Source: Bacteroidota bacterium (GTDB lineage Bacteria > Bacteroidota > Bacteroidia > SXHM01). From it: DNA of 36,463 nucleotides. The notes under the pieces were generated by a model. It did no database searches. It saw only the letters and a program-made list of their open reading frames with translations, and had not been told where the DNA came from. The DNA lies in the NCBI GenBank assembly GCA_947479755.1, contig CANKAM010000009.1:1-36463 (forward strand), read 5' to 3'. Each line of letters opens with the position of its first letter. Position 1 is the first letter of the stretch. A program made the translations under genes and the position numbers. Shown piece by piece: positions 1,011-2,852 of this stretch.

Positions 1011-1016
1011 CTAAAC
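939..1016. repeat. Direct repeat pair, TGCGTGTACTA type
   Basis: TGCGTGTACTATATAAAC at 939-956 and TGCGTGTACTACCTAAAC at 999-1016 agree at 16 of 18 positions and start exactly 60 bp apart. The second copy runs into the last codons of the minus-strand regulator gene (stop at 1011-1013). There are only two copies, so this is not an array. Confidence 0.6.
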
Positions 1017-1919
1017 ATCCAACACCAGTTTATACCCTATACCACGAATGTTTACAATCTTTATACTGGCATCGGCTTCCAGTTTCTTCCGCAGTTTTGA
1101 AATAAAAACATCCAGGGTGCGGCCCACATAATCACCATCGTCACCCCATACCTTATTCAGAATAACCTCGCGCTCAATGGTTGTGTTTGCAGCATTATAT
1201 AGCAACAGCAGCAAATCTGCTTCTTTGCTGCTCAGTTCAGTTTTCTGTTGCCCAAACAGAAGTTCTGTGGTCCGTTTATCAAAATAGTATTCGCCTATCG
1301 GTATCAAATTAGGATTGACTTCTGTTTCGGGTTTAGGCGCTCTCTTTCTTCTTAAAAATAACACAGCTGCCAGCAGTGCAATTAGCAACGTGATAAGTAT
1401 ATATTTTGCCTGAGCTGCCACAGCAAATAAGCCGGATGCAGTGGTTGAATTAGTGGGTTGCACTGTTGCATCATTTTCCTTTTTATCCATCAGGGTAAAT
1501 AAAAGGTTGTAACAAGATTTGGGTTGCGCTCTTGTTTGGCAAGGAACAATGCTCTCTTTCTCTAAATCGTTTATTTCATAGCTATACACTATCTCACCGC
1601 TGCCGCATTGCTCCACTTCCACGATATAGGCATTTGCCAGTTTGGTTTCCTTCATAACCCGCTCTACGGTGGCCACCAGTTCTTCGGGGTTAAATTCAAA
1701 TTCAGATTCCAATTGAATGCGGTACCGGTCCTTTTCCTTTACAATAGGTAATACCCGTGAGCTGCTGTCGTTAAAATTAAGCAATACCTGATGCCCTATC
1801 ATGCGCAACGCCACTTCTATATGTTGTTCGTTTTGTGTTTCCTGAGCTAAACTTGCCCAAGCAAACACTACTACCCCTGCAAAACTTAGCGCTGCAATTT
1901 TAAATTGACGTGAACCCAT
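1011..1919 (-). CDS. Membrane-tethered one-component regulator with C-terminal winged-helix DNA-binding domain
   Basis: This 302-residue protein starts with a hydrophobic signal or anchor segment (about residues 8-25). An extracytoplasmic region of about 145 residues with three Cys (105, 127, 136) follows, then a second membrane helix (about 173-189, followed by LRRKR) and a cytoplasmic OmpR/PhoB-type winged helix (about 206-300, ending in RGIGYKLVL). It has no receiver or kinase domain. The topology predicts that a signal outside the inner membrane directly controls a DNA-binding domain, as in ToxR/CadC but with the DNA-binding domain at the C-terminus. It is transcribed away from the TonB-C protein gene at 2055. 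The shared gap contains phased TTTACAT repeats, a plausible operator. A TAATTTTG box ends 4 nt before its ATG. The domain assignment is firm; the target and signal are inferred or unknown. Confidence 0.85.
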   Translation of the reverse strand: MGSRQFKIAALSFAGVVVFAWASLAQETQNEQHIEVALRMIGHQVLLNFNDSSSRVLPIVKEKDRYRIQLESEFEFNPEELVATVERVMKETKLANAYIVEVEQCGSGEIVYSYEINDLEKESIVPCQTRAQPKSCYNLLFTLMDKKENDATVQPTNSTTASGLFAVAAQAKYILITLLIALLAAVLFLRRKRAPKPETEVNPNLIPIGEYYFDKRTTELLFGQQKTELSSKEADLLLLLYNAANTTIEREVILNKVWGDDGDYVGRTLDVFISKLRKKLEADASIKIVNIRGIGYKLVLDV

Positions 1920-1923
1920 GCAG

Positions 1924-1931
1924 CAAAATTA
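1924..1931 (-). promoter_or_regulatory. Predicted -7 box (TAATTTTG) of the regulator gene
   Basis: On the minus strand TAATTTTG matches the Bacteroidota consensus TAnnTTTG. Only CTGC separates it from the ATG at 1919, so the mRNA should have almost no leader. Confidence 0.55.
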
Positions 1932-1957
1932 TTCGATTCTAATACCCGTTATACTAT

Positions 1958-1996
1958 TTTACATTTAATTTACATCAATTTACATTCGTTTTACCT
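1958..1996 (+). promoter_or_regulatory. Phased direct-repeat operator, four TTTACAT-like units
   Basis: TTTACAT occurs at 1958-1964, 1969-1975 and 1979-1985, and TTTACCT at 1990-1996. The starts are spaced 11, 10 and 11 bp, about one helical turn. OmpR/PhoB-family winged helices typically bind 7-bp direct repeats with 4-bp AT-rich spacers on one face of DNA. The array lies between a gene for just such a regulator and its divergent neighbour. It ends 19 bp before that neighbour's -7 box, where an activator could replace a weak -33 element. Binding is inferred from pattern and position. Confidence 0.6.
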
Positions 1997-2015
1997 TAAA
2001 AGCTCTTCGATGCTA

Positions 2016-2023
2016 TAGTTTTG
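2016..2023 (+). promoter_or_regulatory. Predicted -7 box (TAGTTTTG) of the TonB-C protein gene
   Basis: TAGTTTTG matches TAnnTTTG and leaves a leader of about 25-30 nt before the ATG at 2055. No clear TTTG -33 element is visible at the expected distance. Instead the last TTTACCT repeat of the operator sits there, which fits activator-dependent transcription. Confidence 0.55.
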
Positions 2024-2054
2024 TTGGAAATTAAATAATCAAAAATAAAAAACT

Positions 2055-2852
2055 ATGAAAAAGAGCACTTTATTCCTATTCAGCCTGATCACCACCACTG
2101 CATTTGCTTATTTGAATTGGGGCAATTCAGCACCTGTTAAACAAGAGAAATCAAGCTGCGCACCTGTTTGTTTCGATACGCATTATTTCAAAAAATTGAT
2201 TCCGAAGCCGAAAAAGGAACTGTTTTACGATTTCGGTCCTCGCTTTATTATGACTATTACCAAGGATGAGCTTAATAAGGTTTTATCATTTCATGATATT
2301 ATTTCGGAAAAAGAGATGGGGTCAGTGTCTTATTCTTCGGTTAGCATCACTCTGCTTGACGACCACTACAATACCATAATCAAAGAAACCGGAAGAGGTG
2401 CGGTGTTTACTCCGGCACAACTTGCGCTACTCCAATCACTCGACTACTCTTCTGATTTGGTAATAAGAGCCGACTACCAAATAAAGAGCTGGGTAACCAA
2501 TGAATTTCAATCCGATTATACCACTCCTCATTTTACCGTTGTGCCTGAAAAGGAAGCGGTTTACATCGATGGGAAAGAGAGACTACTTTCTTATGTAACC
2601 AACAACACTAAAGAATTTCTGTCCATTGTTGATCAGGATAAAGTGCAGTCGGGCAAAGTACGGTTTACCATTACCCAAGACGGAAAAATCTCAGGCGTTT
2701 CCCTCGAATCATCATCGGGGTATCCAACCTACGATTTAAAAATAATTGAACTGGTTACCAATATGCCGGGCATTTGGGTGCCCGCAACAAATTCAAAAGG
2801 TGAGAAAGTGGAGCAACGGTTTGTATTATCATTTGGCAATATGGGTTGTTAA
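2055..2852 (+). CDS. Secreted protein with C-terminal TonB-like domain
   Basis: This 265-residue protein begins MKKSTLFLFSLITTTAFAY, a signal peptide. The middle region (about 40-190) is unrecognised. The last 65 or so residues (KVRFTITQDGKISGV, SSSGYPTYD, then MPGIWVPATNSKGEKVEQRF) follow the pattern of the TonB C-terminal domain. Unlike true TonB it has no N-terminal cytoplasmic or transmembrane anchor and no long Pro-rich linker, so energy transduction is unlikely. Such stand-alone domains in Bacteroidota are usually annotated as energy transducer TonB but their function is generally unproven. It is divergent from the membrane regulator at 1011-1919 and is its most likely target. Cys residues at 35, 39 and 265 could form disulfides. 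A copy of the hairpin element follows its stop. Confidence 0.75.
   Translation: MKKSTLFLFSLITTTAFAYLNWGNSAPVKQEKSSCAPVCFDTHYFKKLIPKPKKELFYDFGPRFIMTITKDELNKVLSFHDIISEKEMGSVSYSSVSITLLDDHYNTIIKETGRGAVFTPAQLALLQSLDYSSDLVIRADYQIKSWVTNEFQSDYTTPHFTVVPEKEAVYIDGKERLLSYVTNNTKEFLSIVDQDKVQSGKVRFTITQDGKISGVSLESSSGYPTYDLKIIELVTNMPGIWVPATNSKGEKVEQRFVLSFGNMGC

Follow-up and report, generated by a model that had tools for sequence, protein, structure and literature searches.

A candidate membrane-anchored one-component regulator and its predicted, helically phased operator in a Bacteroidota genome

The locus

In the 36,463 nucleotides of Bacteroidota DNA analysed here (the window), a regulator gene on the minus strand (1011-1919) and a gene for a secreted protein on the plus strand (2055-2852) are transcribed divergently, with an array of short direct repeats (1958-1996) between them. 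On the plus strand, this putative operator consists of TTTACAT at 1958-1964, 1969-1975 and 1979-1985 and of TTTACCT at 1990-1996, the latter having one mismatch to the other three units. On the minus strand, it reads as TGTAAA-N4/5-TGTAAA units. The four units and the distances of 11, 10 and 11 bp between their starts, as given in the original prediction, were confirmed by direct reading. Similar stem-loops of the form AACATAGCC-stem-GAAGAAGAG are located at 873-908 and 2878-2915, in the same orientation, and bracket the module on both sides; no further match to their pattern was found anywhere in the host genome. They are possibly paired terminators, or traces of the insertion of the module as a unit.

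The regulator protein

The gene at 1011-1919 specifies a protein of 302 aa with an N-terminal hydrophobic segment, an outer domain with three cysteines, one membrane helix and a C-terminal winged helix. The OmpR-type DNA-binding domain that had been proposed for the C-terminus was recovered in a Pfam scan of the protein, in which Trans_reg_C (PF00486) matched residues 225-298 with an E value of 1.5e-19; the winged helix is placed at residues 205-300 (1020-1307, minus strand). The structure model of the regulator (pLDDT 87) gave VicR, PhoB, SaeR and YycF as best fold matches, with CadC and ToxR lower. Among NCBIfam families, the DNA-binding domain came closest to RprY (NF051850), with 89 bits at a cutoff of 370, and a receiver domain was not matched in the Pfam and NCBIfam scans.

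The membrane helix comprises approximately residues 171-189 (1353-1409, minus strand; hydropathy 2.5; residues 168-192 in the model) and is followed by the sequence RRKR. Hydropathy at this position exceeds 1.6 in 53 of 54 regulator homologues. The protein had been taken for a two-helix membrane protein: a hydrophobic N-terminus and a helix were indeed seen, but the former is probably a cleaved signal peptide, and the regulator would therefore span the membrane only once. In many homologues the N-terminal helix is closed by A-Q, and the protein in the window reads SLA followed by QETQ, in agreement with the Bacteroidetes Q-rule (PMC5837995). Lipobox-like N-termini were observed in four homologues (L069, L076, L078 and L081), which would mean that lipid-anchored transcription factors exist in this family.

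The extracytoplasmic domain (approximately residues 26-165; 1425-1844, minus strand) has no match in Pfam. It contains the conserved residues R39, G42-H43, D51, S54, Cys105, Cys127 and Cys136, and R39, C127 and R130 are invariant in the alignment of the family. The Cys-bearing outer domain of the original prediction is present and highly conserved, C127 being found in 56/56, C136 in 52/56 and C105 in 51/56 of the aligned proteins. Cysteine lists and the alignment showed that L075, L082, L085 and L086 lack both C105 and C136, while L091 lacks C105 only. Because four homologues have lost C105 and C136 together, a disulfide between these two residues is suggested, which would leave C127 free.

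Full-length homologues of the regulator are encoded in 55 of 395 Bacteroidia genomes (E<=1e-30), to which a profile search added G202, G121 and G386.

The divergent secreted protein

The divergent gene (2055-2852, plus strand) specifies a TonB-C-like protein of 265 aa with an N-terminal hydrophobic segment and a C-terminus that reads FGNMGC, the last residue being Cys265. The proposal of a divergent secreted TonB-C protein was upheld in part. A weak match to TonB_2 (PF13103) exceeded the cutoff (25.4 versus 22 bits), while TonB_C and NCBIfam tonB_Cterm stayed below theirs, and the family of the divergent partner varies among relatives. In a fold search, the model of the protein gave weak structural matches to the C-terminal domains of TonB and PorM. 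A Pro-rich stretch is not visible in the sequence. The reading of the protein as a true TonB was set aside as improbable, given the weak match and the lack of a visible Pro-rich spacer.

Conservation of the phased array

The original prediction had hinged on the conservation of repeats phased at 10-11 bp at orthologous divergent pairs. The 120 bp upstream of 54 regulator homologues (approximately 30-61% identity) were scanned, and expected counts were obtained from dinucleotide shuffles. The prediction withstood this test: pairs of exact TTTACA units with a spacing of 10 or 11 bp were found in 35 of the 54 upstream regions versus 0.03 expected. Three-unit chains, counted with no more than one mismatch in each unit, were present in 32 versus 0.1 expected; the homologues counted are related, not independent, but the rest of the intergenic sequence has diverged. 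Chains of four units were observed in 17/54. The repeats might be chance AT-rich sequence without any function, given that TTTACA is AT-rich and that chance tandem pairs occur elsewhere in the same genomes, but the shuffles and the conservation across families contradict this, which makes it extremely improbable.

Among exact units 7-15 bp apart, a spacing of 10 bp was counted 35 times, 11 bp 13 times, 12 bp four times and 9 bp three times, so that 48 of 55 pairs are spaced by 10 or 11 bp. The array resembles in this respect the direct repeats of the OmpR/PhoB type, which are approximately one helical turn apart. A combination of 9 and 12 bp characterizes one flavobacterial-like group (L075, L077 and L079). 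In 19 of the 54 homologues no exact 10/11 pair was found near the start; L085 and L087-L089 are among those that lack a tandem array in this position.

Geometry of the two promoters

The putative -7 box of the divergent gene, TAGTTTTG (2016-2023, plus strand), begins 19 bp past the end of the fourth unit at 1996, a distance that agrees with the one first reported. That of the regulator gene, TAATTTTG (1924-1931, minus strand), is located 4 nt ahead of the ATG. In Flavobacterium psychrophilum, the -7 box spans positions -12 to -5, and leaderless mRNAs make up only 5.5% (PMC9723704). Because of this span, transcription starts were predicted at 1919 for the regulator and at approximately 2028 for the divergent gene. 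The former is the A of the ATG, and the regulator mRNA is thus probably leaderless, a property that would be conserved: in 24 of the 35 homologues with an array, the sequence TAnnTTTG lies exactly 4 nt ahead of the ATG. For the divergent gene a leader of approximately 27 nt is predicted.

Relative to these predicted starts, the array occupies approximately -39 to -77 of the regulator gene and approximately -70 to -32 of the divergent gene. In the homologues its units are at fixed distances from the regulator start, with peaks at 38, 49 and 59 bp, and in 13 of the 35 homologous arrays the first base of the last exact unit is 37-38 bp away from the TAnnTTTG of the divergent gene, which follows it. 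A recognisable -33 element is absent from the divergent promoter; the array occupies its place, with the fourth unit overlapping the -33 region.

This arrangement bears on the direction of control. A regulator that acts mainly as a repressor would silence both genes from an array overlapping or adjoining both promoters, until a signal frees them; the array is indeed within approximately 40 bp of both -7 boxes, and its last unit overlaps the -33 region on the side of the secreted protein. However, it lies upstream of the -7 box and the start, at a fixed 37-38 bp and in place of the -33 element, which is the usual position of an OmpR/PhoB-type activator, and activated genes tend to have their sites upstream of -35 (PMC4168254). 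Repression as the main mode of action is considered rather unlikely. Activation of the divergent gene is preferred because of the position of the array, although position by itself is insufficient to tell the two modes of control apart.

Distribution of arrays and targets in relatives

A genome-wide pattern search of the host genome (G000) revealed an exact three-unit array at this locus only. Six other exact pairs were present, but these are without a third unit, and no comparable layout was seen upon reading them. The possibility of a large regulon in the host was rejected, as there is no second triple array genome-wide. The idea of a one-gene module, part of the original prediction, does not always hold, as unlinked genes carry the same array in relatives. 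Such unlinked arrays precede TonB-C genes in G275, G378 and G326 (L136, L137 and L139), genes for GGWYCPDN lipoproteins in G226 and G261 (L138 and L143), a Reg_prop propeller gene in G311 (L142) and a serine hydrolase gene in G007 (L135). The GGWYCPDN lipoproteins (L185-L199), of approximately 300 aa, are a recurrent target, and the member that was scanned, L059, has no Pfam match. Together with the data that follow, this recurrence suggests that these exported genes are controlled by the regulator, which would act through the array.

Regulator and targets are inherited together. The family of the TonB-C partner (E<1e-60) is present in 21 genomes, 18 of which have the regulator (p 2e-14), and the GGWYCPDN family in 15 genomes, 13 with the regulator (p 2e-10). 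Rearranged loci act as natural tests of the link between array and partner: in G275 (L093) and G289 (L276), the partner gene lies upstream of the regulator gene and points in the same direction, and it is the partner that the array precedes. The regulator gene itself has the array before it in G121 (L284). G299 encodes a second homologue of the regulator (L273), the gene of which diverges from that of a serine hydrolase and has a triple array of its own. In a congener (G003), no full-length regulator was found, and all that is left of TonB-C is a fragment interrupted by an in-frame stop (G003:C8:3101-3403), which suggests joint loss of regulator and partner.

Exact triple arrays occur in 29 of the 395 Bacteroidia genomes. 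The first regulator set held 22 of these 29 (Fisher p 1.7e-15), a number that rose to 24 after the profile search had added G121 and G386. A reversed pattern, used as a control, matched six genomes, none with the regulator. These data also bear on whether the array serves a conventional response regulator in the cytoplasm, of the RprY/PhoB type, the membrane protein being a mere neighbour with a related domain. Such a view would fit the resemblance of the winged helix to RprY, which is far under the NF051850 cutoff, and for several response regulators direct repeats of TGTAAA are typical (PMC4168254). Moreover, partner genes or arrays exist in three genomes in which a full-length regulator was not detected: in G055 and G383 a GGWYCPDN gene is accompanied by a weak array, and G365, the assembly of which consists of 1670 contigs, carries arrays. 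G202, G121 and G386 were likewise taken for partner or array genomes without the regulator, which was rejected when the profile search found it in them. Response regulators that carry such a domain are, however, encoded in nearly all genomes searched, whereas exact triple arrays are almost restricted to genomes that encode the membrane regulator (24/29) and hold a fixed place beside its gene. A role as mere neighbour is very unlikely.

It is considered likely that a transmembrane one-component regulator binds the array and controls both the divergent gene and its own leaderless gene and that, in relatives, the same regulator-operator pair governs a small regulon of exported proteins. This reading draws on features seen at the level of sequence: the conservation of the array, its constant distances to both promoters, its co-inheritance with the regulator and its recurrence at targets that are unlinked. 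A single polypeptide would have its sensor outside the membrane and, at the C-terminus, its DNA-binding domain in the cytoplasm. Its winged helices would bind the TTTACA/TGTAAA array head to tail, one helical turn apart; from approximately -70 to -32 the regulator would probably activate the TonB-C-like gene, and from approximately -39 to -77 it would control its own gene. We infer such physical binding, activation and autoregulation, as well as signalling through the three-Cys outer domain. A proteolytically released DNA-binding domain is compatible with the data and may be an alternative to regulation from the membrane. The data agree with the original prediction of a kinase-free membrane regulator with a helically phased operator in common with a divergent secreted gene.

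Relation to known regulators

Transmembrane transcription regulators have a wide distribution, with enrichment in Bacteroidota (Demey et al. 2023, PMC10269533). Like other one-component members of this kind, the regulator described here has its DNA-binding domain and a membrane span in one polypeptide. With the ToxR/CadC/TcpP type (PMC10269533) it shares the one-component character, an OmpR-type winged helix, a single inner-membrane span and an extracytoplasmic sensor domain with conserved cysteines, without kinase or receiver. Unlike in ToxR and CadC, where the winged helix is N-terminal, the order is reversed, the sensor coming first behind the signal peptide and the DNA-binding domain being C-terminal, and full-length homologues align over this reversed order. 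A further difference is that the sensor domain is unmatched in Pfam, with homologues found in Bacteroidia.

The DNA-binding fold and the direct hexamer repeats one helical turn apart are shared with WalR/VicR (YycF) and PhoB, and the minus-strand TGTAAA units fit the WalR/VicR consensus TGTWAH-N5-TGTWAH (PMC4168254). In contrast to these proteins, the regulator is membrane-bound, has neither receiver nor kinase and is associated with three to four units instead of two. It resembles the hybrid two-component regulators of Bacteroides in that a single membrane protein joins a sensor outside the cytoplasm to a C-terminal DNA-binding domain inside it, but it lacks their kinase, receiver and AraC domain. 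It differs from RprY, the OmpR-family protein of Bacteroidota that is closest in its DNA-binding domain, in being membrane-anchored and without a receiver.

In open-access papers, searched for the regulator as well as for its kind of operator and promoter, no description of this family was found. While transmembrane one-component regulators as a general kind are already known, this family is apparently unstudied. A large family of membrane regulators in Bacteroidota gains in this way a predicted operator, a promoter geometry and a list of targets, all of which are open to direct tests. A compact natural system of this sort, with a defined and phased operator, a gene that is leaderless and autoregulated and a small number of targets, would be well suited to studying how transcription factors bound to the membrane reach and read their DNA.

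C-terminal cysteines of the partner proteins

Cys265 of the divergent protein is invariant among 11 aligned partners. A C-terminal cysteine is present in 24 of 39 divergent partners. Among background genes it was seen in 1 of 320, and among the secreted-like ones in 0 of 99; this background came from 400 kb of sampled stretches, in which genes were called, and secretion was filtered for, by crude means. The Cys-ended partners span unrelated families, namely TonB-C, CTLEEIP, Reg_prop, BNR, YceI and a GGC family, and in several of them the terminal residue is, on reading the sequence, the sole cysteine past the signal peptide. YceI proteins do not normally end in cysteine, as none of 30 sampled ones did. 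The GGWYCPDN family is without a C-terminal cysteine, and a strict tie of this residue to the regulator was rejected, since distant TonB-C relatives (L176-L183) are Cys-ended in genomes that lack the regulator.

The regulator might sense its exported partners by cysteine chemistry, the terminal cysteine of the partner pairing with the invariant and presumably unpaired Cys127 in a thiol-based feedback or redox sensor. The domain of the partner would be interchangeable and only its tail constant. We regard this as unlikely, a lead only. A C-terminal cysteine common to unrelated partners suggests a sensing principle that was not found in the open-access papers searched. In one genome, three genes of the TonB-C partner family are arranged in tandem (G156:C256:20614-22997).
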